A DNA stretch of 64,000 nucleotides from Pocillopora verrucosa (Eukaryota > Cnidaria > Anthozoa > Scleractinia > Pocilloporidae): assembly GCF_036669915.1 (NCBI RefSeq), contig NC_089320.1, positions 12,958,287 to 13,022,286 on the forward strand, read 5' to 3'. The notes beneath the pieces are model-generated. The model was not told where the DNA came from. It did no database searches and saw only the letters and a list, made by a program, of their open reading frames with translations. Position 1 is the stretch's first letter. Each line of letters starts with the position of its first letter. The position numbers were made by a program, and so were the translations under genes. This document shows positions 1 to 63,500 of this stretch, one piece after another.

Positions 1-40
1 ACTGAAATCGGAGTATCTCTTAATTGGGGATAGACCATAC

Positions 41-3000
41 CTTTCTCTGCATATTCAACGCAGTTAGCAGGTGATCCACCGCTTGTCTGTGAGCACTCAA
101 GTTTATACAGCTGATTCCTAAATTGTATCGGCACCGGATAAACCCCGGGCTGAGATTCAGCGCATGTCTGTATGCATCGACTGCTTCCTCGCTGCGCCCG
201 CCGTTCGCCAACGTGGCGCCTAATCTGTTCCATAGAAGAGCATCATTTGGCAGGGCGTGCAGTCCGGCCTGGAAACAATCGACTGCCTTGTCATACTCCC
301 CAGACAAGTTAAACAAAACGCCGAGACCGACCTGCGAAGGGAGAAGGGAGGAAAAAAAAATCAACTCACAAACTTAGAACAGCATTTAATGTAAGTCGCA
401 CGGTCGACAGGGTTGGATCGGTTTCTGAGAATCTACTCTCACATCATTAAAAGAGTGCAATTAAGAGTTACGTTAAGCTAGATGGAGGGCTTGAACTCAA
501 GGAAAACTGGGTCGAGTACACAGAAGCGAGGCTTACAGGTAAACTAGTGTACTTGTATGGTCTTGTATAGTTAGATGACACAAGTAAAAGACTTGGAAAG
601 AGTTGGAAAAATTTCTTCGCCTTTTAAAATTTTCTTTCACACGGAAAGTTTATCAGATCCAAACATATTGAACGGATACCAAAGCTTGCCTGTACGTTTG
701 CATCGATATCGTTCACTGGAGCCCTTTGTGCAGCTGTGATATACAAGTCTCTTATCTCATTGTACATCTCCGATGACATAATCGATGACGTCACTAACCG
801 CGACCGCGCACCGGTCTCTGATCCCGCGGGCTCATTAGCCACTAGGTCATTGTACCTGACGATGCAATAACAAAAAACAGTTATTGCCTGGAAATGTAAA
901 TTACTCGTGATAGAACATCACACGCAGATCATAAGCAGATTATTTGGTGCCAGATCCAGGAAAGGATGTCCAGCCTTTTCAAACGAACGTCACCACTTCA
1001 ATAATCACCCAACAACTCGGCGTTTCACCATTCAAGATAATCTTATTTTTAACAACTGCGTTGATAAAGTAAATCTGCCACCGAAAAGAGTTTCTTAAGC
1101 TGACCTTTCACGCGTAAGCCCTGAGTCAGAGCGAATAGGTTCCTCCATAATACCCTCTTCCGATGCAGCACCACAGCTTTTTATCATAGACTGAGTTGAT
1201 TTTCTTTACTCACCGTGGGTTAGCCTTTAACCAAGCTTTTAAGGTCCGACAGGCCTGCAAAATATATAATAATCGAAAAAGTTATTTAAAAAAAGCCTCT
1301 TCCGAGAGAAAAGCTTTGCACAGTAGAAGTCCTCAAAGACCACTTCGAGAGAAGATGATCATATCAAGCCAATCGTAAGGTACTCCGAGCACCTTTAATT
1401 GGACTCTGAGAGTAACCCGCCATTATGGTTTTTCTTTAGAGCAATTTCCAATTGAGTATCGAAAGTAATCCGGGTTTGCCTCGTTTTGGTATACTTTACT
1501 CTGCGACCGGTTAAGAAAACTCGCGCCACCATCTCAACTAATCAGATACAATACTAAAACCAGTCACGACTTGGTCGTAAATGGTTTTAGCTTTTTCCCG
1601 CGCTTTAGGCAGTTTAATTGTTTTTACTTTGAGTTCTCATTGGCTCAAAGGTATTTTCCTTTCTCCTAATTGGCCGTTACGATTTCTGTGGTGTTTCGCA
1701 ACACTCAATCGAAAAACACTCTGTTACACTCGGTAATTGGTCAGGAAAACTCCTGCTATCCTCTCAACCAATCAGATGCAAACTTAAAACCACTAGCAAC
1801 TTGGTCACTAGTATCCCCCGCTGTTCAAAGAGTTTGTTCTCTCTTAACACCGAAATCTCAGGATCACTGTGATATTTTACTCTGTTCTCTTTAACTGTTG
1901 CGATAACTTAAGTTTTAAATCTAATACACTCCATCAAAATGCGCCCCTATTTCAGGAAATCTTACCGTTCATAACATTACAACGCCGTCCCTTGAGTTCA
2001 TCAGGGCCATTTTCTAAGTCTAGTCATTCTTGGAAAAGTTGAAGCGAAATTGTTTGCGAGGACAAAAAACAAGGATTTCAACTTCAATAACGCAACACTT
2101 TATATTGTAAAACGCTTTGCAGAACGCACCTTGGGAAAACCTTAACCGTAATTTTTCGTCGAATAAGTTACGTAGTTACCTGTGATTGCATGGATTCATT
2201 GGTGTAACTTACTGCCAGAGCCATAAGCGCTGTCAAATTATCTGGCTGTGATTCGAGGCATCTACAAAGACAAAATGTATTATATTCACCTCGTGGTTTA
2301 GAAGGAATTTTCAATTTCATCCTGCATTACTGAGCTCTGTGATTAGTCCGGAATACTTACGTCACTTTCTAAACCAATAAATAAAGGTGATTGGTTTATC
2401 AATTGACAACCAATCGCAGCTACAGGTTTTCCCGCATTTGAGGTTGGTCAAACGTTTTTTTCCCGCACTTCATATCTGTTTTCACTCCCAGCACTTACTT
2501 ATTCAAAGCAATTATTGCTGCAATATCTTGCTCGTTTTCTGCTTGACTTGTTCCTAAATACTGCCACGCCTGCAAACAAGAGGGGAAATTTCAGTACACA
2601 GTATATACCAGGGGACAGCTTGAACCAAACTAGATCGGCACTATTCCTGGATTATAATGGTCAATTCTGCATTGGTGCAAAACGTGCCTTTAGCAGCTCC
2701 GCCAGCTTGACTTAAAATGGCACACTCAACAAAGGATGACCATTGATCTTCCGAGTCAGGTGCAACCTGCTTACGTTGATGGATATTTTTTGGGAGTTTC
2801 AGAGCAGGTTAAATTCAGTCTTCCGTGGAGGTCCTTCCTTGCACCTACGAACCTGTCTAAGAAGGGATCGCGGGCGCACCAAGCCACCCTGGAGACTGAG
2901 CCTACAATAGGCGGAGCCGCAAGATTAGAGCTTCGGGTTTACGCAGGCTAGGTTCTTCTCACAGTTCGATATATAATAAGTTTTACATTTCTAGGTAAAG

Positions 3001-6000
3001 AAAACATTCTTTTGTATCAACTTACCTCAGCATGTTCTGGTCTCTGCTTAACCTGAAATAGCATCAAAGTAACATCAACAATTCACTTCTTTAAATCCAG
3101 ATCGGTCACACAACCCTCTCTTGATAGACTACGTAACAGTCACGCAAATACGCTACTTGTATAAAGTCCGCAAAATTTATAAAGGACAAAAATGGTTCGT
3201 GACGCAAAAGTCTCTTCAGATGAAAAAGTCTCTCCAGTTATGGGTCCCGAAAGGGTGTATTTTGTTAGACGCGTTTACCGTCAAAATTGATATTGAAAAC
3301 CGAGATGCAAAATCACTTTGCTCAACGATTGGCCCAGAAAATCTACGTCAACTCTTCAACCAATCAGATGCAAAAGTCCCCTTAGTCAACTGTCCCGAAT
3401 TGCTGTATTGTATTTACCTGTTTACATTCACAATCGAGATGCAAGAAGAGAATAGTTCTTGATGTAGCTGTTTATATACTTAACCCTTTAACTCCCCGAG
3501 GTGATTAACATGAAACTTCTCCCTATAATATTCATACATTATCCAGCAAACAGGTGATGAGAGTACTCAAACGTATCCGTTAGAGGTTTTTATCCTGATC
3601 AAACACCACATTCTCATAACTAAATTGCAAGGAAATTTGTGGCAGCTAGAGGGGAGAATGAACAATCAGATCTTGGGAATTAAAGAGTTAAAAGAGTATC
3701 AAGAAGTTAACAACGGAAGTACCCATACCTCTGCTTCAAATAACAAAATAGCACTAATCAAGTCTCCTTCTTTAAGCTTTTTCAGTCCCTCCTCAAACGG
3801 GTTTGGATGATCTATGAGTGGATTATCTTCTTCGAAAGTATACTCCTGTAAAGACGTTTTACAAAGTGGCAAATATCAAAAACTGGTAACGAGTCTTTCC
3901 TGGTGATTATATAACACAACCTACCCAAACCTCCCCTCCTTTTTTTTTTTCGCTTCGCCGCTGCTAAGGCGTCTTTCACTATCGAACTCCGCTTTCCTAA
4001 ATGAACACCAAGTAGTGTAAAACTAACCTTGTTCACTGTAGCATCACTTTGACTGTACCAGGAATGAGCGTCTTCACCATCACGTCTGAAACAAAACGCA
4101 ACCAACACGAACAACATTATGGCTGAATAGTCACTGGATACCTATGGTGTATTCGCAGAATCTTTGAAACAACAACAAAACACCTGTCACTGAATCAAGC
4201 CATTTCTCTTCAAAACCCCTCTTAGAAATATTTATTGATAATCTCCTTTTGCATTTAGGAATTCAGAATGATCGCTCAAATGTTGTAACTCAAGGCTGTT
4301 GTATTGAGCGTATTTCGCTCAAGTGTCGTAAAATAAAAATCCAAGGTAATCAAAACGGCCATTAGAATAAAGATAGATATCACAAAGAGCCAATGAAAAC
4401 TCAAAGTAAGAACATAAAATGGCGTAAAGTGGGAGGGAACATGTCGTGATTGGATTTGGTTTCACAGCTGATTGCCAGTAAAGGTGGAAAGCAAGAGTTT
4501 ACTAGACACCATATATCCAGTGTGTCTGCTCGCTTCCAGTTTTTGTATATGTGTTTGTATTTTTGTATATTTTTGAACTGTAATTTTTCTTTTGACATTT
4601 TTTTCTCTCTTTTGCTTTGTCTTTTTTATTTTAACTATGTTCTATTAAAAATAGTCCACACATGGTTTCCAAGTGAGCTTCCTCGCCAGAAATAAAAAAA
4701 CTTGTACAGTGGTGTGTGCATGTTCTTAAATAAATGTTGTAAATGTTTGTAATTGTTTTCTGGCAAAATAAATCAGTCAATCACAAAAGCAAAAATTTCT
4801 TTCAAGTAAAGCGTTTTGATTAGGTCAGAGGAACTTTGCCTACTTCAACAGTTTGAAAACAAACCCAATCACAACTTGGTTCGCATGCTGGTGTCAGTTG
4901 CATGTTCAGCCTCGCCTTTTCATTGGTTCATTTTGTTGCTGGCATTGTACTAGTAGCAACTGACCAATGTAATTGTTTTGGTATGGTTGAGATTTTCAGT
5001 TCTGGATTGGAATTCATACATACTTTCAATTTAACACATAGATTCCATGTTACTGTGCAGCTGTTCAGTAATACATCATGGATGACACCAAAATGTGGTA
5101 AAACCAAGAAAAATGAAACATGAGGTGCAGCCTAGTGTCACTGATGTCCTTACCACATTTTGACATATTCTGTGATCTATACATGAACAGACCCACAGCA
5201 AAATAAAATGCAATTTTTCTATACATAAAGAGGCAAAAAGTTTTTAATGGTGACGTAATCTATGTGTCTTTTTTCCTATAGATCATGAGTAAGACCCAAT
5301 CAAAATAAATCTTTGTAGACACATCTTTAACTTACCTTATTAGGTCATCCCACTCTCCTTCCAAGCGATCCCAAAATTCCAAATTTGACTGCAAATAATC
5401 ATGTTTAATTATTCAGATCATCAGGTCTATAATCAGGTTTAATCTGTATAATCAACTGTTCTCTAAGATAACTTGCAGAGAGAGCAGAGCCATGCTCCTT
5501 TTGTGGAGTAATTTTAGCTTCATCAAAGAAAGGCCTTTAAAAAGATGGAAACCTTTAAACAGTCTTCATTCTGTCATCATGTAGTCATTATGGAAACAGT
5601 CCTATCATGTGACTAAATACCTTTTGTTCGTGGGCTGCAGATGTTAACTCTTTGATCCAATCATCAGCCTCAGTTGACCTAAATTTCTCATACTCATCCA
5701 CCCACTCTTCTGCAGCCTCAGTGTCTTCATTAACCTCCTGCCCAGTCTTTGTGTCAATTACCTGAAGAAAGCAATATGGCCAATCAAGATTAATGCTACA
5801 GATACCACCAGAGCCATCTCTAATCCCAGCTTGTGGGCAGACCCTCATTGTGAGCTCTGTGGTACAAGCATTTCCTCACCCACGCGAAAGTTTGAGGTGA
5901 GTCTGGGAGAAAGTTTGAGGTGAGTATATGACAAAGTTTGAAGTGAATCTGTGAGAAAGTTTGAGATGAGTATGCAACAAAGTTTGAGGTGAATCTGCAA

Positions 6001-9000
6001 AAAAGTTTGAGGCAAGTCCAAGACAAAGTTTGAGGTGAGTCTGCAAGAAAGTTTGAGGTGAGTCCATGAGAAAGTTTGAGGTGAGTCTGCAAGAAAGTTT
6101 GAGGTGAGTCTGAGAAAAAGTTTGAAGTGAGCTAGGTTGACACTCAAGGCCTAAACTCTTCATGCACCTGAAAGGCTTCCATGTTTCTGACAGTAACTAG
6201 TATTAAAATTCCCCTTGGATGGGACAATGTTGTATTGTAAATTACTGGTTACTCTTGAGGGAGTTGCTCAGGAAAAAAAAAACTATAGATAACACAGCAC
6301 AAGAAGCAAGGAGAAGTTTTAGGCTGAACTCAAAATATAACATATATATTTTTCTCTCAATCTCAAATAATGGAACCAATTCTTAAATCAAATAAAATTT
6401 CCACTCCTTGGTAAGATGATTGTAAAAATAGAGAAGTGTCATTGTCTAACAATTTGGAGTAAAAATGAATTTTCAACATGCCTGGTTATTTTCAATTGTG
6501 TATTCACCATCTCTAAGTTTCTTTACAAACTTCATAAACTGGAAAGAAAAGAAAGACCATTTAGGGAATTTACAAGATAGCATGGAGTTCAACATGAAAA
6601 TTCTCCTCACTATTGGCACTGAATTCATTTTCCATATTTTTAGAGAAATTTATGACCTAAGCTCATTGACAAAAATTTTCAAGTACAGATAACTGTATAA
6701 TATTATTGACATTTCCTTAAAGTAATATATCCTTTGCAGGTCAGGTAAAACTGATATTAATCAGAAAATTTCCACTTTAATTGACTCAAAAAATTAAATA
6801 TCCCTACAATCACTTCAAAACTATTAAAACTGATTAACCCTTTGACTCCTGAGAATGACTAGCATCTAATTTCTCCTCACAGCATCACCCCTGAGTCACA
6901 CATTTAAGTCATGAGAATAAAGGAAATGATCAGCAACTAAACACTGTAGCTCTTGATTGTTATACAAATTCTCCTTGCCACCACCTTAGGAAATGTATAG
7001 AGAACAGTATAGAGAATGTGCATACTGATGCTAGGTTGTAAAGGGTTAATAGCCCACAATTACCTTTGAGTTTGCAAACTTTGGATCCTCAGCATTTTCA
7101 AGCAGCTCCCCAGCTGTCTTGGATAGTTCAGCATTTTCACATTCTTGCTTGTATTCATTTACCCTTTAAAAAAATACAAATTAATAACACAAAAATTCTG
7201 GAAATATCAATAAAATAGTGTTTTAGTGTTTCCTTACCAGGAATGTGATGCATACCAAAATACAACAAACACCACCACAAATACAGGGCTTTGACTCTCA
7301 AGATTGAAACATCAATTTTTAACACCGTCTACCACACATATCTTACAATTTTGCCATTAGAATTTGGTGTTAAATCAAACAAAATCCACCAGTTGACATT
7401 TTAATTAATTTCTTCTCATCACCTTTCCATTTGAATGTGATGGGATATTGAATGGAGAGATTCCTTTCTAAAAACTCCTCGGTATAAAGGGTTCATGCAA
7501 TGCAATTTCTATGGCTTGTTTTCCAGAAGAAAACTAATTTATTACAATATTATTTTATGTGTATAACTCTACCAGCTTTTGTAATCATTTGTATACACCT
7601 TTGATAAATTAGGTGACTCATTTAAAAAACAAACTAAACTACACTAACCATGCTGCATCATCCAGGCCTTCGTGTCCCATGTCCCTACAAAGTAAAAAAA
7701 AATTAAAATCATGTTTAAACCTTAAACCTGTAAGTGTGATAAGCATCTTATTCCTCCCCACAATATCATCCCTGAATCAAGCATTAAGGTCACGAGAAAA
7801 AAGGAAATGATTGCAAAATCAAGAAGCTCTTGATTGTCAAACAAATTCTCCTTATAAGTACCTGAGGAAATGCATAGAGAACAGTATGAGGAACATCCAT
7901 GCTGATGTTAGGGTGTAAAGGGTTAATAAAGTTAAAATTATAACTTAAATAATTCTAAGAAATCCATTAATAAAACATTCAGTCACTCACCTAACATGCT
8001 CCAGGTACTCATCCGCCCATTTAGTTGGAAAATCCTGGACACCTGACCCATTCAAGAATGTCCAGTTAGTCTTACTAATAGTTTCAAAACCTTTTGGTTG
8101 GTATGTTATGTCTATGAACTAAAAAAGTAAAAGTAACATACCAGCTCTTGGTTGAAATCTTGTTTCATGTACATATTCTTTTGACCATTCTGAAAACAAG
8201 AGATATAATTGTTTGTGATTTGGAAAGCAAACTCCCTTTTAAGGAGACTTCATCTACCATGTAACTCAAGGCTGAGGTCCATTCACGACTTCACCCTTTG
8301 ACCCCTAAGAGTACCTACTGGTTGTTAGCATCTAGATGCTCCCTACAATATCACCCCTGAATCACACATTAAAGTCGCAAGAATAAAGGAAATGATCACC
8401 AACTAAAGAGGCTCTTGATTGTCAGACAAATTCTCCTGGTCAGCACCTTGGCAAATGTATCACAAACAGTGTAAAGAATATGCATGATGATGTTAGGGTG
8501 CAAATAGTCTAAGGAATACCACATCTTTTATTTTCAAGATTATGTATGAATTGCCTTCTTCATCTCACAAACAAAGCTTATACTTAGCCTTGTAATGACA
8601 ATTTGCACTTCAAGAGGTAAGTATAGCACTAGCTGCATAGTTATCCAAACAGTAAATTGACATTCATGTCTAAATTTTAAATACCTTCAGCTCGTTGCAC
8701 CTCAGATGACATGTATTCAGCAGCCCATTCACTTGATGCCAGATCAGCAATTCCAGGAGCTTGATGAGAAAGAAAAAATTAAGGGATATTGATTGATCCA
8801 ATATCAAATTCTCTGAACTAACACCATAAAAATTATATGGCAGAGAGTAAAGAAATTATTAAAAAGTTTTACAGAGATTAAACTGAACACTGTTCTTGAG
8901 CCAAGTGACCCACAAGGCACCATGTCTGTGGCATCAGGCAACTACAGTGTAGGAGCATTAATAGAAGGCCACCATCCTCCTTCCTCCATCACTCTAAGAT

Positions 9001-17638: not shown

Positions 17639-20600
17639 TCATGTGATTGGTCTCCTCCTAGGTCTTTTCCCATCAACCCAGAGCTGCATTCTGGTGTTTT
17701 TTATCCCACGGCCTTCACTTGTAAGTGTCATGAAGTAGACTGTTGCCAAGACGACAACCACAAGAAGGCCAATGATTAAGAATGTATATGCATTTGTAGT
17801 AGAAGTTGATGGTGATCCAATCTCCCTCAGATGTAGTTCTGCTAGCTCAAATGATGGGTTAAGGTCCAGCACATGTCTGAAGTGGATCCCAGCTTCTTCC
17901 AGGTCTCCATTTGCTCTGAGAATTTCACCAAGAGTAAAATGCTGAAGCCAGCAGTTATGTTCGGATGGTTGCATTTCTAGTGATCTTCGCGCAAGGATTG
18001 CAGCGTCCTGAATATAGTTCAAATTGAAAAGGACCTTGGCAAGATTTAAGAGGGCATCAGCATCATTTGGTGAAAAATACAATGCTTTTCTGAAACACTC
18101 TATAGAGTGGTATGTGCTTCCTCTAATTCTCCAGAAATTTCCAATGTGATTACAAACAACAACTGAATTAGGACTCTGCAGGAAAGCAAACAAAATAAAT
18201 GTAAAGAGAAATAACTACACTTCCATAAGAGCACAGGTGGTTTTTAAAAATATCTGTGATCATGCTGTGGAAATTAATTAGCAGTCATGAAGGGGGGGGG
18301 GGGGGGGTTAGTAGGGGGGAACCAGAAAGGGGTGAGATGAAAGTTCAAATAATAAAAAAGATGCAAGTTCAAGAGAGCTGGTGTCCCAGCTTTCTTGAAA
18401 CCTTCCATGACTTGTGTATTGATATTTTCTTGAATCTCTGATCTATTGACATTCCTTGCTAAAGAGAAAATCATAAAAATAAAGTTGTTAGAGGGTCAAA
18501 TCATAGATTTCCCTCTACTTCTTTGCAGAAATGTTTGTGTGAAAATTGCTGTTTTACACTTTAATGAGTAAGAGAAATTTAAGACTGATTTTTCTAGGTG
18601 GATTTTTATGAGAAAGAGTAATTTAAAATTACTTAGACAAATGTTCAAAGGAAAATAAACAAGTAAAAAGCAATTATAGAGATATTACAAGGAACAAGAA
18701 ACTACCTATGTAGGAAATATATTGGTATACTTTATGGCAGTCAAGCTGAGGAGTCATAGTCATTTCTGCCGTATAGAGAAGTTTTCAATTGAGTTCCAAA
18801 AAACAACAAATTAATTACAACTACCAATCAGAACAAGGGTTAACATTATCCTTCACCCTTTAAGTCCTAGGAGTGATTATCAACATATTAACCAGCAAAC
18901 AGGTAATGAAAATACTCAAACTCATCAGGAAGAAGTTTTTATCTTGATCTTGCACCAAATTCCCGTAACTAATTTACAAGGAATTGTGTAGCAGCAAGTG
19001 GAGAGAATTAATAATCAGGTATTGGGAGTTAAAGGGTTAAACAGTAGAACTCAAAGTAAAAATGGACAAAGTGCTTGGAGCACGGGAAAACACAAGTCAT
19101 CAAGTTGGGTTGGTTTTACTTTTAAATCTGATTGGTTGAGAGGGTGGCCTACAAAAAAGCAAAACCAAAGCAACACAGGATCATTTTCGATAGTCTATTA
19201 AAAATTGCTCTACACTACCAATGATAAGTTTGTCAATAGGATTCAAAGGGCCATATGGAATAAGCCATTTCTGTAAAACACTTTGCAACCATTTACTTAC
19301 TTCTTCAATAGCTCTTCTCAAGTTTGATTCTATAACACCTAAGTCGATGTCTTCCATATCATTCTTCTTAAATAGCATTGCTACATCAGGCTCCATAAAT
19401 GTTGGATGGTACTCTCGGTTAGCTATTCCTTCTAAGTGGTCATAAGATGTCTCATTAACTGAGGATCCACATGTTAACTGGGGTGCAGGAAATAATTCAA
19501 GGGATGTAGGACCTACTGCACCGACAACAGGACTGTGAATGAAAAAAAAATCAACAAACTGAACAATTATTAATTTCAAAAAGATTGTTGGTGAAGAGAA
19601 ATGTTATTCACTTGCTATAGAGGAAAGAAAGAATATCTGCTTTCCACCAAGAAACAAACTTCAGAAATCTCAGATTTCACAGGCACACACTCTAAACCTG
19701 AGCTTGAGAAAACTCATGATCAACCCTTTCAATCCCATGTAACTTCTCCTTACAGTAACCATACATTATCCAGCAAACAGGTAATGAGATCTCTCAAACC
19801 CATCAGGTTCAAGTTATTAACATGATCTAACACCAAATTCTTTTTACTGATTGACAAGGAAATGTTTAGCAGCTAAAGAGGAGAGTTTACAATCAGATGT
19901 TTGGACTAAAGGCAGATATGGCTCAGATATGGTCCAGATATGAAGTATTTCAAAAAACTAGAAGCCGAAATATTAGAAAATGAAATAACAGTCAAATAAT
20001 AAATCCCTTATTTGATGGCTTAACATAGAATACAAGCAGATATTTTGCTCATTGACCATATTTTTCCTTGCCCCTACAGGGCTCAGAAAATGCCAAGCAA
20101 CTTGCACAATATCCATGCATATAACTATAAATTTAGGTGTATGACTGAAGACTGAATCCTCACTGGTGCCTTAAAAGTTTTCTTTGTCTTTATGCAAAAA
20201 TTTAATGCTTGACATTGTTTGCTGAACAAAGATAATAATGAAAGAAATTCATACAACAAATTATTTGCTTATGATGGCAGCAACATTTAAGCAACACAAA
20301 TAAGTTTAAATATAATATTTGTGTTGTAACTTTGTATCATATGCAAACTTGACCGCCTCAAATAAATAACCCATAAGTACTGATAATACCCTCTCTGACC
20401 GACCTCATGCCCAGACAAAAATAACTCTTTTGTTTTGACTTCACAGCTGACTTATTCAGACTGAAAATCAGATTCAACTTTTCAAATTTTCTAAAAAAAG
20501 AAGACTGAAGACAAAACTGAGAGTTACATTGCCAAAATCAGTTCTGAACTTGTTTAAATATTAATATCAACTTCAAGTTGCCCACAAACTGTTGAAAGCT

Positions 20601-24092: not shown

Positions 24093-27000
24093 TCATAGTT
24101 CCATAACAACGCCAACAGGATGAACGACGAAAGAAATTTCCAGGAAGAAATTTCCAAGGGCCTCTTCTAAGGTACTTCTGACCTGTATATGAGAGAAGAA
24201 ATAGTCATCAAATCAATGCGAAACTTGCTGGTTGAAGTACGTCTTTCCGTCATACACTTCTATACTTGATCTAAACACTTCTAAATAGTCTCCTTGGACC
24301 TTCATGTATCCTTGCGCAACGTTCCTTGCCACTGACGGTACGTTACGCAACATTTTTCGCACTATGTTTTGTCAAGCACAGCCTACCACCCACCTCAATT
24401 TGTCAGGTTACCCTGAAAATTTTGCAGGTATATTCACCCTTTAACCCCCAAGAATGATTTAAGCATCTGATTTCTCTAAACAGTATCACCAATAAATCAA
24501 ACATTAGGGTCACGAGAATATAGTAAATTATTACAAACTCAAGAAGCTCTTGACTGTTAGACAAATTCTCCTAACAAGTACTATAGGAAATGTATAAATA
24601 ACAGTATGGAGAACTTGCATGCTGATGTTAGGATGTAAAGGGTGAACATACTCAAACTTCTAGGGGGGATAAGAACCCAGACTTGTCCAACCAAAGAACA
24701 GCATGCTTACCATTATGCTACTACATTTCCTTTTACTCTCAAGTAGAATTTGCTCATCAAAATGGTGCCAAGCCTTACATTTGAGGCTTACCTTTAATGA
24801 GTGTTCAAAGTCACAGTACACCCACACCTCATCTTGCAATGTCTGTAAAAAGCCAAATGAATCTGAGTTCACTGCTTAGTAGTCTGTAGCAAGTTACCTA
24901 TCACAGTTCCACTATGTTTCCTAACAGTTCACAAGTAATCCATTTAAACTAATAATAGACAAGTAATCCATCTAAACTAATGATAGAAAAGCTGTTATGG
25001 TTGAAAGTCTTTCCCTAGATTACATGCCTTGTCTTAGTGTTATTACTGGCAATATCAGCACATTTCTCAACATACATAAGAATACTCCATGGTTAAATTC
25101 CTGACCTGAAGTTTTGCATTGCAGTAAGGAAGATGACCTTCTTGGATCAATGAGCATACTTTCTTCCAAAGTTGTTTTATTGTGAAATTCTCCTCTGTAT
25201 TGCAAAAAAGAACACCTCTATGATTAATCATACCTGACCCAAGCCTAATTCTAATGCGACAACCAATTTGAAGCTTCAACATCCCCCCCTCCCCCCTCAG
25301 CAATCCCCAAGGCATTTGAACTTTTGTAGATTGGTTTGTTCAAATTCCTGCTCCCCAGTGTGAAATTGTGTTCAAGTACCACACCCAAGTGCCAGATTTC
25401 ATCATCAATATTTTATAAAAGCAAAATCAGCGACAATGACTTTAAACAAATACTATACTATAGATAGACTATACTATAGATACTTCTATATAGTATACTA
25501 TACTATATATAAACTCTTCAAAGATACCAAGGCAATCACATGATAAGGACATAATTAGAATGAATGACTCTATTGACAAACTTAAACTGGTATATATAAA
25601 AGAAGGTAATTCATGTACCTTTTAAGGAACCTTTTTTGGCACAAACAATCCATTTTCCTCGTTGATGATAATCCAATCCATACTGTTGCTTCACTTGGAG
25701 AAGGTCTGTCTCCTTGAATTTTTCCAAAACAGTCTCTTTTTCTTTCCCTTTCCTGCAATTGATATGTGGAGGACTGACACACCACAACTTGACATAGGAA
25801 AGAAAAGAATAATTTAGCCAAAATTAACAAAAATTTCAAGTAACCCAAAATAATGATCTTTGTTTCTTAGTGAACATTGCCAATAAGTCTACAGATGTAT
25901 TAGATTAACATCCAGCTAAGTCCCAGGATCCATCTGGTAACTCACCCAATTGATGGTCATAACTTTCCTAGTAAATTAGGGAAGAGAATCTGACTCGAGT
26001 TGTTTGAAGGTTGGATAGCAATATCCACTGAATACAACACTTATCCACTGGATAGCCATTTATCCTTTGGATATTCCATTGAATAACTGGGCTTTGGTGT
26101 TATTTCAAGACAACACCCCCTTGCTGATAAGTTTGACTGTTCTCGTAATTTTTTCGCAAAATAATATTTGAATTGTGTGGATAAGAGTATAAACAGAAGA
26201 AGGTGAAAAGTAAGGGGATCACACAAGATAGCTTTTGTGTGTTTCTCTTTCTTTTCCAACACTTACTGATTTGGCTGAGGTATTTATAGGATTTAGAGCT
26301 TCCTCCAACAGTTTGCTCTTTCCACTTCCACATTTAGAACAATCTACACTACCACCCCTACTCCAGGGGCTATGGTGTTCTGCAGGATGATTGTTACATG
26401 TTCTGCTCACAATCTTCTCTTTGTCATCACCTTTCTTCAGCTGTGCTTTTTTTAAGCCTGATTTACCAGAATACACAGGTGAAAAGTCAAGTAAGTTGTC
26501 ACTTGTTGATAAGAAGTTTTGCCTTAAAACTGATGATTGGTTTGGTGTCAGTTCTGAAATCACTGTCAACTTTGGGGGAAGTACCTTGAAGCACAAACAG
26601 GTTAAGGTACTCTCATCTATAAAGAAAGGAACAAGAAGAAATATTAACCCATTAAACCCTAGGAGTGACCAGCATCTAATTTCTCTTAACAGCACTACTG
26701 CTGAATCATTCATCAAGAACTGTCATTTGATAACAATAAAGGAAATGACTGCCAACTTTATGAGCTTTGATTGTTAACTAAGTTCTCCTTGTCAGTACCA
26801 AAGGAAATGAATAGGGTAAAGTATAGAGAATACAGATACTGATGTTGGGCTGTAAAAGGTTAATGCAATAATGTCATTTCTGCAATAAACCTCTGTCTGT
26901 ATTCCCATTCCTGCATTTCCCTAAAAAAGAAAATCTCCATTACAGTAATAGTGTTGGTATCCATTTGGACTTGGTAGCACTTCATCATAATAATAATTAC

Positions 27001-37315: not shown

Positions 37316-39754
37316 CTAATTTGATCCTCTTGTAAGGTAAGGCTTGCCAATCAACAGGTAAAAATTGAAAGACAAGTTGATTAGAAATAATGAAAGAATA
37401 TATTTCCTCCGAGTTATTTGGTTAAAAAGGTTTGTAAGGTGATCTCTGCAATTTTATAATTACACTATATTTGTTTTATTTTAAGCTCTACGAATATCCT
37501 CGAACCCGTCGCTTCCTGTACAGATCTCCGCATCGATTCAAATTAAAAATTATTTAATGCACTTAGTAAGAAAATATAGAGACGATAAATCTCTCTTTGA
37601 AGTTCTTTGTCTTGAAACTAATCAAAGTACCGCGTTCTATATGGCAACGCACAAAAATTTGAATGCTTTAAAGAGTATTCCATTTTTGCCAACGTGAGAA
37701 ATCTCGATAATCGTTAGAAATTAATGTCTTAATAACTAAATCGAAAAACCGCCGCCAAATATTGAGTTGGTAATTTTTATGATCGTATTTTGAGATCTGA
37801 AACGTGACAAATCAGGAACTAGTGTTTTCTTTTGCGTTTTCGTCAATCCCTAAAAATAAACTTTCCTACTGATCTTGCTTAGCGGCATGTCTTTAATCTA
37901 ACCGGCTGACTTTCTATAAAGCACAAAAAAGGGAAAAGAAATCGCTCACCCACATGAAATTCAGTGACGATCGCATGGTTGTTCAGCTCATATACTTCAG
38001 GATAGGACTGTTTATAAGTAGAGGCATTGTTTTGATATTTCACTTTGTCTTGTTTTGGTTTATTTTCTGCCATTTTTCTTCGTCTTGCATCATAATCGAG
38101 TATTGCATGAACTACATATAATTATGTCGCTCTTGCCCCGGCTGGAAACTTGTTCTAATAGGGAAAGCACATTTATACAGTCAAATTCATTAACCTTCAC
38201 TGAGCTATCATTTGGCAAACCGCAAAAGCAACTATTTATCTTCGCTTGTCACTCTATGCAAACTCTCCATGTCAAAAGGTGTAGTAATTTGCAATAAATA
38301 GAGCGGCTAAAGAAAAGAAAAGAACACCGCTTATAGAGAAAAGGAGAGACCGAAAACGTCAATAACTAACTACAATGCAAACTTAAATTATGCAACATTA
38401 AGGCTCTATCGTTTCGGCTGTTGGGTGCGATAGTTGCAAACTGATTTTTATTATTTTTTCGCAGCGGGCGAGGGAATATTTGGGTAAGAATTGTTAATTG
38501 TTTATTGTGATGTTTCGGCCGTGTGCTAAAGATGTCAGAGCCGCCGCGTGCGAACCGACAAACGTGACCTCAGCAAGGCAGTTGTTGAAAACTCTGTCCC
38601 TCCTTGCTCAGCCGGAAGCGATTGCTTTGAATTTAGATTAAATTAGTATGTTGCAATCTGCTGTCTTTTTTCTATTTATTCTCTAAAAGGGCAAATAAGC
38701 AATTTGGAAAAACCGTCATCTGCGCAGAAAGCCTGTTGTATATCTTAGTTTGTTCGGCCTTGACTTGTGTAAAACACGCGATGGTCATCTACTGAAACTC
38801 AAAAGGGATTTTCAGTTTGTGAAACGGTTTGTAGAAACAAATAAGACTTATTTAGAAATCTTTTGTCTTTAAATTTTGACGCTAATTGCGGTAACGCTTT
38901 TTCTTTCCGCATCACATATACTTCCAGAAAGTGAAACCAAGGCGGGTGGTTTCGGCAATGCTTATTACAAGTAATAACTTTTGGCTTGAAGCGCCCGCCG
39001 CTTTCATTGAATCGGCGTAAATGAACTCTTTTCGGCACGACCCGATTGGCGTGTTTGCCTTCTCAAAGTTCGGTGGAAACGTGGAAAATAAACAACTGAC
39101 CCCTGTCGGAGGTCGAGATTCACGTCTTCAGGACTTCGCGGGCTTGTTTGTACAAATGGACTACTCAACTGGTTAGTGCGGCACAACTCTTTCAAGTTGA
39201 AGAGCGTTGGACAAGGGACACCCTGTTTTTAGATAATTGAATGCGGGGAAAAGTTTTCGCGCAGTTTTATTTGCGCAAGAAAAGTCAAGGTCGTGAAAGA
39301 GAAAAGAAAACAATTCCCTTTCTTTTAAACGAAGGCAAGCCTAGACCGGTTGCTGGTTACAGAGACAAATTGTCGCCACCTCGTTAAAACTGCACGGGAA
39401 TTCACGGGGAATCTTGTGTCTCCAGTGTGTTACTGAGCGTGTGGATCGTTTTCCAATTGTTTCACATTTTCAATTGTTGATTGAAATTCGAGGGCTTAGG
39501 TGTAATTCTGACGATGGCCTGACTCTATCCGGCTCTGACCAACACAAGAGCATCACCGAAGAAAAAAAATTCTCGACTGAAAGTAACTCTTCAACGTGGA
39601 GACGGTAAAGCCATAGATTGAGACATAGATTTTCCCTACAAGATTTTCACTTTCACTTCTGCACCGTTAATCGCCTTAAACGCCCTTTATGATTCAAAAC
39701 CGGAAAGGTATTAGAGTATTTAAACTGTGGTAAGGATATACGACCGCATGAAGA

Positions 39755-40159
39755 ATGGAAAGAAGGGAAATAAATCCTCTTATTACGCACGCGACAGTCG
39801 CGAGAAATAATTTTTCAAGGACGACTCATCAGCAACTGCGCAGTACTTTGCAGTTTAACAGCAACCCTGAAGAGAACATACATTACGTTGCACAAAACCT
39901 TGCATGGATTGGAGATCAAATGGAGATGCGGATAACATCGGCACAAACAAGGCATACACCAAGAACAATTGGGAGATGTTTAGCTGCAGCGGGAGATAAG
40001 ATAAACTGGAGGTACAATCCTTTAGCTCGAAGACATAAGACTTTCTTACGGCTCCTCTGGAGAAGCTTTTCTGAACAAGACGACAAGGGATTTGCTTTCG
40101 TAGGAGTTCTGCTTCAAGCAGTCTACCTGGCTATCCATGAGGTTTCGCTAAACTTGTAA
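39755..40159 (+). CDS. Candidate BCL-2-family protein with two BH3-like motifs
   Basis: Single open frame of 134 codons; the ATG has A at -3 and G at +4, and an in-frame stop lies 6 nt upstream. Residues 45-60, VAQNLAWIGDQMEMRI, fit a BH3 helix of the BIM/BID/BMF type (L at position 2, then IGD and M). Residues 72-87, IGRCLAAAGDKINWRY, fit a second BH3 and resemble the BAK BH3. Residues 94-105 are amphipathic (HKTFLRLLWRSF). Residues 113-130 are hydrophobic (FAFVGVLLQAVYLAIHEV) and resemble the BAK segment after BH3, around BH1. No BH2, BH4 or clear tail anchor is seen. If real, it would act in mitochondrial apoptosis control, as activator or sensitiser. Additional 5' or 3' exons are possible. 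No transcript evidence is available to me. Confidence 0.6.
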   Translation: MERREINPLITHATVARNNFSRTTHQQLRSTLQFNSNPEENIHYVAQNLAWIGDQMEMRITSAQTRHTPRTIGRCLAAAGDKINWRYNPLARRHKTFLRLLWRSFSEQDDKGFAFVGVLLQAVYLAIHEVSLNL

Positions 40160-42660
40160 ATTCTTTGTTCGATAATGGTTTGATTCAAAGCGCGTGTTGA
40201 CATACGCCAAAACTTGGTCTGCTACAATATTTAATATAAGTTATGTAATACGAGCAGTATTTTATGTTTTACTATGAACCATTGTTACAGTTGCATTGTT
40301 GCGTTATTCAGTCGCTGAATATCTTATTGTTTTTGTATATAACATAACTTTGAATTTGTACATAGGCACACATGATCGTATCGTATTTTGATGATCGATA
40401 TCGTATTTTGATGTTTCAGAAAATGGCTTCGCTATGTATATTGCAACGAAATTAACAATAACGATACGATATAAACATTAATTGTTGTGTATTTATTTAG
40501 AATTACTCGTGCTAACATCGTGTTCGCACGAGTTTTAAAAACTCGTAATATTCAACAGCTATTTATCCGAACGCTTAACAATAGCGAAAACATTTGCTTT
40601 GCGATTATGATGAGATGAGGTGTTTGAACGTGTGCACAAAGCACAGTAAATTTACGATTATCCTCTTGTCTTCGTATAGATTCTCAAGAAACTATAATCA
40701 CTCGACAACTTGCATTTTGGAAATTATTTAATTGACGAGAACTGACCATAAATTAGCGCATATTTCAACTTTGTCAGCTATGCGGAAAACTTTTTATCTT
40801 AGACACAACACAACACAACAGCACTGCTTGAGAGGTTCAAAATTTATAACCAAGTTCAATTTTCTCGCAAGAGTCTAAATTATTTCATTTTCGTTTGTCT
40901 CGTATTAAGAAGTTCCTCATAATGGACAAAAACGCTTTGGAATTACTTAGTCAAAACTACAGTAAGGATGTTGTAGAAAAGTAGGCATCGCATAAATTAA
41001 AATAGCATGCTGTGAAATAGAGACAAACTTGTTATTTCTAGCTACCCAAGCTAGTGAAAATAACAAATAAGTTATTTATTTCATCATTTCACCGCCTAAC
41101 ACTTGCGAGTGTGGTTTAGTTATGATTTTCACCACAAATACACCAATGCAATCATTTCTTACACTATCGTCCTGGTTCAATTTGCTTGTTATGGGCGACA
41201 CAGCTGGTATTGACTCTTAAGATATACTGAAACTATTATATTGCCTCGACCAAAATTTCTGATTAATTTCCAATTAAGGTGTGCCAAGAAGACGTAGCTT
41301 GTAATCGCAAACGAATGTGTGCACGTAAGAAACGTCGAAATATTGCTAAGAAAACAAAGCCAAAGTAACATTTGCCCTTTTTAAGAGCTGCGTCTATCAT
41401 AAACTAGCCGCTCAGGCAGCTATGCAAATACCAAGTCAGGCAATACACGATTGCTAAGAGACTAATCACGCAAGGTTTTTTCCCCTCCCGTTTTTTGCTA
41501 TTTTTATATAACTTTGTACGATCACAAAATGAAGACAAACAAGGAAAGATCTCTCAATATAAGATCAGGTCTTACATTTTTTCTTCAACGGCAAGACATG
41601 ATGAATGAGAACTTTGCGTGCTAACGATGAGAAATAAGGAAGTGTTTTGACCAGCTGTCACCCAAACTCGTTTAGAGGAGACGCAATTGCAAAGAAAATT
41701 AAACTGAAACAGCTGGAATCATTTTAAAGTCAGTTGGCGAGATGTACATCAGTTGAGGCAGCGTTCAGTATTTCATCTTTGTCGGCGTGAAGTCTGGGAA
41801 GGGGTGTGCGATCGAGAGAACGCGTCTCTCCAATGTATCAAAGGTCGCAATGTGGTCCAACTTCCAAGAAAGACGTTCTTCCTTCTCTCACAAGCGTGAG
41901 ACAAAGAACGAAAACATATTCGGTCCTTAACTAGGACTCGGACTCCAGATCTTCGTTATTGTGCTCTGATGCCCTGCCAATAAACTACAAAGTACTCACA
42001 TAATTAGCATTTCAGGAGTTCATGTCAATGCTGTATAGAAAGATTCTGAAAGCGTTCAAAAGCTATTTCACACTTTTTGATGTATGTAGATTTCCATCTC
42101 TCGTGTTAGGTCACCATGTTCAGTGCAATTCGTTGATTATTTTTTGTCTAATTCTTTTTCTTCTGCATTTTCGTCCATCTCGGTCAATCCATTGCTAGGA
42201 CATGCTCGAGAGGAATGGCGGGGAAGAAATTTTACCCTTTAGCGCTCATGTCACGTGACTCGTAACAAAGACTGACCGCAGCGAAATGTAGAAATGAATA
42301 TGGAGGAAAGGTCTATTTTGAAGTGCAAGTCCCTGCTGTTAACAACTGTGATGTGGAATCTGCTCTAAGTGAATAAGAACTTCTAAAGGCCACTCGTTGC
42401 AATTCAAAAAGCCAATGAACTTAACACCGTGGGTAAAATGTTGAGTAGACTTATTGGAAAAGTGAGCGGGACTGTGCATATTCTGCAATGTAATTCGCAG
42501 CTTTACTAAGCCAAGGAGAAGGCCCTCGTTATCGGCCTTGCAGGAAGCAGGTCTCTCCAACTGCAGAAGGATTTGAGACGAGTCAAGGATATTTTTGCCG
42601 GAGGTCTGGTTCTACTTTTCAGTGTTAGGCCCCTGGCAGATCTCTCGCCGATCGATCTTA

Positions 42661-44173: not shown

Positions 44174-44245
44174 TCCCATATGGTCTAGTGGTTAGGATCC
44201 GGCGCTCTCACCGCCGTGGCCCGGGTTCGATTCCCGGTGTGGGAA
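44174..44245 (+). tRNA. tRNA-Glu (CTC)
   Basis: 72 nt. The acceptor stem pairs TCCCATA with TGTGGGA (one T-G wobble) and the discriminator base is A. The D arm has TGGTCTAGTGG (A box). The anticodon stem CGGCG/CGCCG holds the loop CTCTCAC with anticodon CTC. The T arm has GGTTCGATTCC (B box). A run of T follows within about 15 nt, suitable for Pol III termination. There is no intron, and 3' CCA is not encoded, as expected for a nuclear gene. Confidence 0.97.
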
Positions 44246-45627
44246 CATATCTATTTTCTTTTTCGCCTCATAAAATTTCTCGGACCATTGTTTATTCTTC
44301 TAAAATCTTTTCTTTTAATAATTTTTAAATTTTTGTTTGCACTACTTCGTCGGTAGCCTCGTCGAAGGCGTTTTTTCTAGAAACACTTCTCGCGTGTATA
44401 TTTTTAGATTCTTGCTGCCCGCCAATTTCAGCATTTTTTTCTACTTCACGAGTGCATTACATTTCTGTTTTTAGAGTGATGTATACGTGAGCCTCCCATC
44501 AAATTTTAACGCGAAGAAATAATCTGGTTAATTCAGTGGCATAGCTGGTTCAGTCAACATACGTGGGTGCGCCTATCGCGCGCGATAACCGCGACTTTCG
44601 AGTTTCAAAAATATTTCAAACAAACTTGCTCATATTTTGAATGTTGATTATAGCAAAGTTCTCGGCGCACGTCTAAGGCAATTGAGTTAAAGATTAAGAG
44701 GCTTAGAGTTCTAAAGTTCATGCGATTAGGAGAAGGTAGGTTTGGAAGTTGGAAACCTTTTCCCTCCTGAAAAACACCTTCTTCTTTCAAAAGCTTTGAT
44801 GGGGCATTGCCTCTCTAAGAGTGGACTAAGAAAAAAAAATACGACCATCTGGTCTCATCAAATTACCTTGGAGACAGAGGGAGAGAAAATGAAAACAGGG
44901 CTCGGACAACAAAACAATAAACTTGGTAATTCACCTAAAATTATCTAAAATTTAATACAATCGACTTCCGGTGAATATTCCCCAACTTTAAGCCAAGGTA
45001 AAGGACATTCAGAAGTTCCTAGCAAGATATTGTTTCCATAGAAACATTCAAACTACATAACAAACTGAAACTAACGCATTCAAACCCGCCAAGGTTTAAG
45101 GACTCGTTGATCGCACGACTGACTTACCATTCTTAGTGTGGGAGAAGGTCAAAGTTTGAATCATTGCTCTCGAAACTCTCACGCCCAAAGATGACGTCAG
45201 CTGGCATTAAGTGAATATGACTTGGATAAATACTTGAAATGATTTATGCTGTTTGAAATAGGGTATCATGTGCATGTGTACTCCACAAGGAGTTTTATCC
45301 ATGGATGGGCCTAGTAGAAAGACAGTTATACAAAGAAATAAATTCTTGCATGAGAGATCAGGAAAGGCATATTGGAAGAGTACTTTATTTAAACTTCTTG
45401 TAAAGGGTTAAAGAAAAAAAAATCCTGCTAAAGAAAATTGCATTTAATATATCTCTGCAATATACCTTTTTCTTGAGGGCGTTAACAGCTTGCAAAACAA
45501 CGTCGGTTAAGAATTCTATGTATCAACATGTCTGTGATATGGCGCGTATGATATACTGGCACAAGTAATCATTGCTGCTCTAGAATTTTGGGAAAAGGCA
45601 TTTGTGCTTTGACCAACCCTTAAAATT

Positions 45628-45635
45628 TATATAAA
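45628..45635 (+). promoter_or_regulatory. TATA-like box upstream of FOXJ gene
   Basis: TATATAAA lies 170 bp before the proposed FOXJ start codon, just upstream of a CRE palindrome. Spacing would place transcription start near 45660. Confidence 0.35.
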
Positions 45636-45688
45636 TGAAGGCATACGTAATAGACGAGATATGTTTCACGCCACTAAGGGTCATCTTT

Positions 45689-45696
45689 TGACGTCA
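45689..45696. promoter_or_regulatory. CRE palindrome TGACGTCA upstream of FOXJ gene
   Basis: Perfect CREB/ATF consensus followed 5 bp later by a TGACG half site. It lies in the likely 5' UTR or proximal promoter of the forkhead gene. Confidence 0.4.
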
Positions 45697-45804
45697 CTGA
45701 TGACGTTTCTTCGAGCTCCACACATAGTAGGAGACATGCGTGGTGGGTTTTTTTGCTCCACCACCCCCTGCAACGTTACGGTTGGCAAGAACGCCATTGC
45801 AATC

Positions 45805-52298
<6,494 letters not shown>

Positions 52299-60500: not shown

Positions 60501-63500
60501 CTATAACTCATAGACATTAGTCCAACAATGCAATTTGCGATTTTGTTTAAATTTTTCTTGGTTTATGATGAAAAAATAAGAAGGAACTGTCCATTTCCTG
60601 GTGGGTCAGTTGAGTATAGCAGTGTTATATCATAGCAGATTTAATTAATATTTACACTTGGGCACTGAAAGATGTGTACCTTGAGTCCTGAAGTCTTTCA
60701 AGTACAGTGTTTGTGTTATGTATAAAATTTTTCTTCTCTAATGCAAAATAAACTTGCATGACATTTCATGAATTTCCTTCAGCAGAAGCTTTCTCAACCA
60801 AAGCTTTAATAACAAGTTTACATACAGTAGGAAACATTTACAAAATAATCAACTGTAAACATGGTAACATACTCGTCACTGAAGAAATCCAATGAACCTG
60901 AAAACACAACCCTGGCATTGTTCCTGGCTTGAAGACCAGCAATCAACAAAGTGCTCTTGCCAACAGCATGTGGATACTGAAAATACAAACATGTCTTTAA
61001 TTAAGTTGATCAGTAAACCTTAGAAAGAAGTTTAAAACAACCCTACTCAATATGGAAATGCTGAAGATGTCTGACCAAAAATAATTCAGACTCATCTCCT
61101 TTGTATGCCCTTTCTCCAAAATAACAAGATCTTTGAAGTGTGCTTTCCACATTTACTCTGGTTGTCCAATTCGACAAGTACCTTTATGGTCATTTTTTCT
61201 TATCCAAATGGAAAAGTTACCCCTTCCAGACAATCTGGCCATCCAAGTCACAGAAAAGTGGGTAGAAGTTAACCCTTTAGACCCTGAGAGTGACTGGCAT
61301 CTTATCTCTCCTTACCCTATCCCCCCTGAATCAAGCACGAAAGTCATGGGAATAGAGGAGATGATCACCAACTCTTGATTGTTAAACAAATTCTCCCTGT
61401 CAGCCTCTTTGGAAATGTATGGAGAACAGTATGGAGAATATGCATACTGATGTTAGGGTGTAAAGGGCTAAAGTACAAACCAAGTGGCCTGCACTAGGAA
61501 AGCTTATCTCAGCTTCTGCAGCATGACTGATATTGATCCCCATAAATTGAGAGCAACTGCATCTCAGGCCACTCTCAAGTATTTCCTACAAATTTGTCAA
61601 AAGTTTACCAGTACTCATTAACATTCCCACATGGGGTCTGTGAGGTATTGCATCACTTTCCCAAGAAAATAACACAGTACCCCCAGTCAAGGTTAGAAGA
61701 CTTTACCTCAGATATCTTGACATCAGGGTAGTATGAATAAGCAGTAGAAGATGCTGTCAAGACCTCCATTACAAGGGGATTGTCAGGATCAGCAGTCATT
61801 CTGTCAAAAGGAAAAACAAAATGAAGTTTGCATACAGCACTTGCTTCTCAAACAGAAATTATTACATGCATATTTCTCTTTCAGACAATAAAAAGATACA
61901 AAATGCTATGGTAGGAGTTACAAAAAGACTTCAACTCAGATGTCTTTTTTCTGTAAACTTTAACCCCTTAACTCCCAGAGGTGATTGACATGTAAATCCT
62001 CCCTAATATATTACAGTAAATAGGTAACAAGAATACTGAAACTCTCCAGGAAGAAGTAGATATCTTATCCAACACTACATTCTTGTAACAGATTTGCAGG
62101 AAACTGTGTAGCAGCTAAAGGGGAGAAAAAAAAAAGGGGAGAATCCAAATCAGATCTTGGCAGAGATAACTCTACTTACCCAACTCCTTTAAATAATGAG
62201 GGGTTTGTCACTGAGTGTCCTGTAACAGTGCTAGCCTTGATGACATTTGAAGGGTCGGCAACAATTAGAGTATGCTAGAAATACGATTACAAAAAGACAG
62301 TCACAAAGGTATTGCACTTCATACAAGATACTCAAACATTGATTTTTGGTTCCTGTAAGCTGAGGAACACTTTTCATGCTGGTTGCAGGCCAAACAGAGA
62401 AGTATTCATGATGGTAATAGGACCACGTGGAGTCCAATTTGGTCTGTAATCTTATGAGTGATTGACAAAATTGGACAACTGCAAAGCCGGAGTCCAATTT
62501 GTTAACCATGAGTAAAATTACAGAAAGAATTGGATGACATGAAGTCCTGTTACCTAATCACAACTATGACAAAATTTGAGAAGGAAACTAGATACGAGTT
62601 TTACGTTTTCATAAGAAAAACAACATTTAACTTGGTGAAATGCCAGAAAACAGCCTGCCCACATGATGTGTTCTGTCCACTCACACAGGCATGACATGTT
62701 AACTTTCCCTTTAACTGTCCTATTACACAGCCCAGTTACAAGCATGATGCATATACTGTCCTATTAGTGCTCAAATCGGGCTGGTGATAACCAGTCACAT
62801 TCAAGAATTTTGTTATAGTTTCGATCAATAAGGTTATTTCTTCTTGCTTTCTGTTGATTGTCATCTGAGCAACCTGGAATTACTAATTTAAAATGGGAAT
62901 GAAGGGAAGAAATAGAAAATATTATTGGAAGGAATGATTGTCAGGGAAGTACACCGAAGAGGTAGAGCAGATGAAAACAGGTGAAACTTAAGTTGCTCTT
63001 GGTTTTTTCAGTAATCTTCCTCTTTTCTAGATCTTCTCAGTTTATTTTGTGACTCTTTATTCACACTGTGCTTAAGGACACAACAGCTACTTAAAATCCT
63101 ACATTTCTTTGCCAGTCTCACCGATGAAAGATCACAAAATGCCTCTGAAAAAAGGAGGATGGCTGACCAATCTTTAATCTAATAGATTTCTCCTCACAGT
63201 GTTATCATTCAATTAAACATTAAGGTCGACAGAATACAGGAAATAATTGTCAACTAGAGAACTTCTTGATGGTCAAACAAATTCTCCTTGTCAGTGACAC
63301 TGAAAAGATGAATGTTTAGTATAGTGTAGAGAATATTCATACTGATCTTAGGGAGTAAAGGATTCAATATTTAAGTGCAGTTTAATGATCCTCATTATCC
63401 AGCAAAAATTGACAGTAACTACTTAAAAGGGATAGAAAAATACCTGATCCAAATCAGAAACATCATGGTTGATGTGATCAATAACAGAAGTTTTCTCTTC

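Follow-up and report, generated by a model that had tools for sequence, protein, structure and literature searches.

The stretch of DNA analysed here, hereafter the window, comprises 64,000 nucleotides of the coral Pocillopora verrucosa and lies on contig C9 of the assembly that was searched (353 Mb in 52 contigs). At positions 39755-40159 of its plus strand it holds an uninterrupted ORF of 405 bp, which encodes 134 amino acids followed by a stop; its ATG is flanked by A at -3 and by G at +4. An in-frame stop stands upstream of this ATG with a single codon in between, and an upstream ORF of 20 codons, which starts at 39748 in another frame, overlaps its beginning. The encoded protein combines a BID-like BH3 motif with the core VAQNLAWIGDQM (motif 1: residues 45-56, 39887-39922(+)), a BAK-like BH3 motif with the core IGRCLAAAGDKI (motif 2: residues 72-83, 39968-40003(+)), the two 12-residue cores being separated by a spacer of 15 residues, and a C-terminal hydrophobic segment (residues 112-134, 40088-40156(+)), recognized by hydropathy and a low-confidence helix, which is a possible membrane-binding tail. 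The first-pass annotation of this DNA was correct in the ORF, in its coordinates and in both motif strings.

Synteny anchors are available on both sides: downstream, a Forkhead-domain gene at 45613-46197(+) (Pfam Forkhead, 65.9 bits), to which, by reading only, further exons at 50417-50755 and 51618-52295 might belong (Pfam has no match there), and upstream, open frames with TPR repeats at 23-373(-) and 17642-18214(-). A tRNA-Glu (CTC) is predicted at 44174-44246(+), in the interval that separates the forkhead gene from the BH3 ORF. By eye, strings like NPL.P.SD.HLIS that are common to the frames at 26391-26774(+) and 61085-61375(+) and to locus L033 perhaps mark an interspersed repeat, and overlapping frames at 5823-6196(-), in which strings such as HLKLS and LTSNF recur, may represent a short tandem repeat. 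Mobile or repeated DNA at the BH3 ORF itself was considered and rejected, as blastn of positions 39000-41500 (E 1e-3) returned no match in the rest of the window or in 200 kb of genome DNA. A prokaryote promoter scan, which is uninformative for animal DNA, found nothing.

Both motifs display the four hydrophobic positions of a BH3, with Leu at the second, and its conserved Asp. A loose BH3 pattern, run over open segments of at least 25 aa on both strands of the window, gives five matches, three of them with GD, and two of these three are the motifs of the ORF. Scored with a 12-column profile derived from 22 human BH3s (Table 1 of PMC9171138), motif 1 reaches 16.3 bits and motif 2 reaches 21.0 bits. 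OAS1, BCL2L10, caspase-8, clusterin, INK4C, HEBP2, ITPR1, MOAP1, HERC1, TPT1 and ATG12 were kept out of the profile by choice, as was BCLXS, which duplicates BCLXL. When each of the 22 known BH3s is scored with itself left out, the values range from -0.0 to 26.2 bits with 13 of the 22 below 16.3, and both motifs fall inside this range. The best score outside the ORF is 8.3 bits among 666 window segments of at least 40 aa, and elsewhere in the genome, over 200 kb taken from 20 stretches, the top-scoring 12-mer has 12.7 bits. For an estimate over a larger space we simulated 990 Mb of DNA in 3-kb pieces with an order-2 Markov model of the window and obtained 492 single matches of at least 16.3 bits, 16 of at least 20.9 bits and 10 same-frame pairs of at least 10 bits, with not one same-frame pair of at least 16.3 bits; by extrapolation, chance would supply about 0.001 such pairs per 353-Mb genome. 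Because no such pair arose in the 990 Mb simulated, the presence of two good BH3s in one frame is not a matter of chance, and chance motifs were rejected on this simulation together with the 200 kb of real DNA. Pattern, profile and simulation thus bear out the pair of BH3 patterns first picked out by inspection. A recent duplication of one BH3 into two was likewise rejected: the motifs resemble each other weakly (z 2.2; 203 of 5000 shuffles as good) and their DNA has no common repeat of at least 16 nt. An old duplication behind the two is possible.

The codon usage of the ORF is coding-like to a modest degree. With log-odds trained on 895 codons from six exons of the window, three of them Pfam-supported, the ORF scores 0.044 per codon; the 207 other window ORFs of at least 60 codons average -0.129 (sd 0.098), and 10 of them are as high. 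An accidentally open stretch, either non-coding or a pseudogene, would be in keeping with the seven frames of the window that extend for at least 135 codons from stop to stop and with the outcome of the genome search, in which a relative was found neither for the whole protein in the 353 Mb nor for the second half of the ORF. Nonetheless, paired good BH3s in one frame are not expected by chance and the codon bias exceeds that of 197 of the 207 ORFs, and we regard this reading as very unlikely, with a recently dead gene as one possible form of it. The viral and prokaryote collections, from which animals are absent by design, contributed 5 and 36 stretches with the short pattern, respectively, none of them a relative.

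The extent of the gene is a distinct question, since the ORF might be one exon of a longer gene in which a donor removes the stop or an upstream exon gives the start. Two predicted splice sites, scored with the generic weights of the analysis, speak for this. A weak donor, CTT/GTAAAT at 40155 (score 3.9), overlaps the stop of the ORF, and a better one, GTG/GTAAGG at 39729 (score 8.6), would close a possible alternative first exon at 39689-39729(+) that has an in-frame ATG and could join in-frame acceptors at 39819 or 39861. The latter arrangement, however, would swap only the N-terminal 22 or 36 residues and would leave both BH3s as they are. Downstream of 40155 there is nothing recognizable either by a BH2 pattern or by Pfam Bcl-2 on C9: the BH2 pattern occurs on the ORF strand of the window only at 15011 and 37071, both upstream of the ORF, and the genome search with the Bcl-2 model (PF00452), whose counts are lower bounds, lists no place on C9. 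A missing BH2 exon downstream was rejected on these two results. A gene that extends beyond the ORF is therefore unlikely in our estimation, and it would be compatible with the interpretation favoured below if the start alone changes. In the 1.8 kb 3' of the ORF, AATAAA is absent and variant poly-A signals alone are present.

Motif 1 has the clearer kin. Against all PDB sequences, the whole ORF has five matches, of which three are BH3s (BID twice and BAK), with E from 0.087 to 0.93. Motif 1 alone has eight: six to BID, one to PXT1, which we take to be a BH3-only protein, and one unrelated; the best has E 0.0062, and the closest sequence is, from our reading of the entry, mouse BID. Among Pfam families, a search with all 134 residues, as had been suggested for BH3 and BCL-2 domains alike, gives BID (PF06393) at 18.8 bits and E 0.0012, below the curated cut-off of 25, and no match to Bcl-2, which is silent on the pieces of the ORF as well. 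The BID match spans the BH3 stretch of the model and stops at residue 62, leaving the remaining model uncovered. Motif 1 by itself finds BID and, weakly, BIK (E 0.15), and an unrelated weak match of the ORF is to Ig_5 (E 0.1); no Pfam family is found by motif 2 alone or by the tail alone. The BID side of the BID/BIM likeness ascribed to motif 1 in the first-pass annotation is in this way sustained by the PDB and, beneath the cut-off, by Pfam, while the ORF differs from BID in falling below that cut-off and in having a second BH3. For motif 2, the second half of the ORF has six PDB matches, two of which are BAK BH3 peptides with E 1.5-1.6, and four unrelated sequences rank above them. Searches that were not tuned to BH3s agree with a BH3 identity, and this agreement is strong on motif 1 but weak on motif 2.

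The likeness of motif 2 to BAK is better seen within the same genome. The Bcl-2 model locates at least 12 places, at least 11 of them above the cut-off, on contigs C1, C4, C8 and C11. This repertoire points to an animal genome, none of 14 control genomes having been matched, and its loci are possible targets of the ORF protein. One of them, L026 (C1:30941096-30941395(-)), would be BAK, judging by our reading of its BH3, NWGR and GGW segments. When residues 66-92, which take in motif 2 and its flank, are compared with 12 Bcl-2 loci, L026 is the closest (score 43, z 5.4, 0 of 1000 shuffles as good) and L031 second (4 of 1000), with RHTPRTIGRCLAAAGDKINWRY of the ORF aligning with QHVP-VIGRRLGEIGDEIDAKY of L026. 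The BAK resemblance claimed for motif 2 accordingly stands on this alignment, the PDB offering weak BAK matches. Motif 1 is weakly similar to the same loci (best L026, 19 of 1000). The affinity of motif 2 to the BH3 of BAK may be due to shared ancestry, or the two may have converged because they fit the same groove.

The similarity ends with the flank of motif 2. Residues 88-134 have no significant likeness to any of the 12 loci (best z 1.1, with L026 outside the best four), and when the tail is added to motif 2 the match to L026 weakens to z 3.7 and 5 of 1000 shuffles. The tail is indeed hydrophobic, with a top mean Kyte-Doolittle value of 1.68 over 19 residues (114-132), and that much of the "BAK-like hydrophobic segment" described earlier survives; its BAK-like part does not, and neither does the proposal that a segment resembling BAK around BH1 follows motif 2. 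A tail equivalent to BH1-alpha5 of BAK was rejected, being without significance in the locus alignments, the PDB and Pfam, and homologs of the tail were found neither in Pfam nor among the 12 Bcl-2 loci, nor in the short ORF L039 considered below, nor in the genome search. Since the hydrophobic tail holds E and H, a full transmembrane anchor is uncertain. AlphaFold, run on the single sequence, gives a mean pLDDT of 47.4. As regards disorder, which in BH3-only proteins prevails outside the BH3, this model has 70 of the 134 residues below 50 and none at 70 or above. Its low-confidence helices lie at residues 38-61, 69-82, 89-107 and 110-133, the first two covering both BH3s, as BH3 helices should, at a confidence too low to bear weight.

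These observations bear on whether the protein is what is left of a BAK, in which alpha2 (with the second BH3) to alpha5 were kept in shortened form, alpha6-9 with BH2 and the anchor were lost and a second BH3 was gained. For such a relic one may cite the alignment of motif 2 and its flank with L026, which none of 1000 shuffles of residues 66-92 equals, a semi-global alignment that places TF...R.F...G under the stretch before and at BH1, and the last two predicted helices (89-107 and 110-133). Yet the tail reaches z 1.1 at best and dilutes the match when added, Pfam Bcl-2 is silent, and about 13 residues between the BH3 and the aligned TF would have to be missing too. BAK possesses BH1, BH2 and a C-terminal anchor in a Bcl-2 fold, none of which was detected in the ORF. 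The tail is without detectable Bcl-2 signal and no BH1-BH2 exon was found near; both speak against a cut-down BAK, and a relic of this kind is decidedly unlikely. BH3-only proteins are set apart by the lack of a Bcl-2 fold, and no such fold was detected alongside the motifs, either on the ORF by Pfam or, in a search whose counts are lower bounds, on C9; an unseen spliced exon might, strictly speaking, still exist. Of the two interpretations originally offered, then, the two-headed BH3 protein is supported, whereas a BAK derivative deprived of BH2 and the anchor has not been borne out.

The same annotation started from the premise that BH3 proteins have one such helix, which is wrong. Mouse Noxa is a small protein with a C-terminal tail past its second motif. 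Mouse Noxa (PMAIP1) has two BH3 motifs, the second with Glu at the first position (PMC2871139), and ITPR1 and nesprin-2 are likewise on record with two. Compared by published layout alone, the ORF is like mouse Noxa in its two BH3s, its small size and the tail after the second motif; it differs in that its heads are BID-like and BAK-like and both hydrophobic at the first position, where the second motif of Noxa has Glu.

We favour, with a probability of roughly 0.7, a BH3-only death ligand in which two unlike BH3 helices are followed by a hydrophobic tail and which works like two-headed mouse Noxa. We infer that the protein is expressed, binds Bcl-2-type proteins, is targeted to a membrane and acts in a pro-death capacity. 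The hydrophobic tail would take it to the outer mitochondrial membrane, where each of the two BH3s would, as known BH3-only proteins suggest, fold into the groove of a Bcl-2-type partner. Partners of the BID-like head would be pro-survival proteins, perhaps along with BAK, and the BAK-like head might mimic the BH3 of BAK and displace BAK from the pro-survival proteins that hold it. Two unlike heads could broaden the range of targets, which is the effect of the A and B motifs of mouse Noxa; alternatively, they could grip two Bcl-2 proteins together. A tentative extension, which we think doubtful, is that the heads are of separate origin, one in common with the single-BH3 ligands of this animal and one with its BAK, in a protein that triggers BAK and also strips the pro-survival proteins off it. 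If true, activator and sensitizer would be fused here in an animal of an early branch, and this would have happened independently of the two-headed Noxa of the mouse. The BH3 pair also offers a direct way to decide whether two-headed ligands recur as a design or are peculiar to the mouse.

Among cnidarians, four BH3-only proteins of Hydra (HyBH3-only 1-4) are on record (PMC10192318). A paper of 2014 reports that no BH3-only protein was identified in Acropora digitifera and draws attention to how small and divergent the domain is (PMC4083563). A 2022 survey lists cnidarian BH3-only candidates, with Acropora, Nematostella and Clytia among the species, and describes them as intronless in the legend of its Fig. 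5 (PMC8998228). This agrees with the uninterrupted frame of our ORF, a likeness by description and not by sequence, and the ORF could already be among those candidates. Because cnidarian BH3-only proteins and two-BH3 proteins are both on record, its kind is already known. Neither a two-BH3 cnidarian protein nor this gene turned up in a search of full-text literature with few subscription papers; the pairing of a BID-like with a BAK-like head in a single small protein is, as far as we have seen, new.

When the BID model is run over all 353 Mb of the genome, three places are listed, all below the cut-off. Our ORF is the weakest of them (15.3 bits, E 2.0); a place on C4 is a 736-codon frame (18.8 bits) in which the BH3 pattern finds nothing, and the match to a place on C11 (21.9 bits) crosses four stops. 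The last led to L039 (C11:4121499-4121741(-)), an ORF of 81 aa that carries the BH3 SVANKLAIIGDEL and ends in a hydrophobic stretch, and this has two relatives among short single-BH3 ORFs, L041 (C11:4125086-4125316(+), 48% identical) and L040 (C11:4131319-4131558(+), 50% identical). The three lie within about 10 kb and about 19 kb from the Bcl-2 gene L023 (C11:4102206). Between L039 and L040, SVANKLAIIGDEL is unchanged, and point estimates of dN/dS are 0.32/0.95 = 0.34 (NG86) and 0.35/0.72 = 0.49 (YN00); L040 and L041 are nearly identical (dN 0.027, dS 0), with one change within the BH3. All three are likely BH3-only genes to judge by their sequences. Given the two nearby relatives of L039, the unchanged BH3 in L040 and these dN/dS values, it is probable that short single-BH3 genes form a group in this genome.

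These C11 ORFs parallel ours in having a short frame, a central BH3 of the type E.I..VA..LA.IGD and a hydrophobic C-terminus, and depart from it in having one BH3 and, in L039, 81 aa. Against the L039 protein, motif 1 is matched by 2 of 5000 shuffles and motif 2, somewhat weaker, by 9 of 5000, whereas the tail and N-terminus of the ORF have no likeness to it (4851 and 3403 of 5000 shuffles as good, respectively). Such BH3-BH3 matches reflect the common motif and are by themselves no proof of common descent. BH3-only proteins of corals are hard to find, and the two-headed gene together with the group of three single-headed ORFs provides concrete entry points to the way in which cell death is decided in corals, a matter of relevance to stress and bleaching.

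The Bcl-2 search also brought up a locus of separate interest, L034 (C4:27684114-27684362(-)), at which a frame of 223 aa joins a death effector domain (Pfam DED, 51.6 bits, cut-off 35.9) to a Bcl-2-like stretch that, at 20.1 bits, lies below the cut-off of 31.4; such a fusion of DED and Bcl-2 would tie the extrinsic to the intrinsic death pathway within a single protein.
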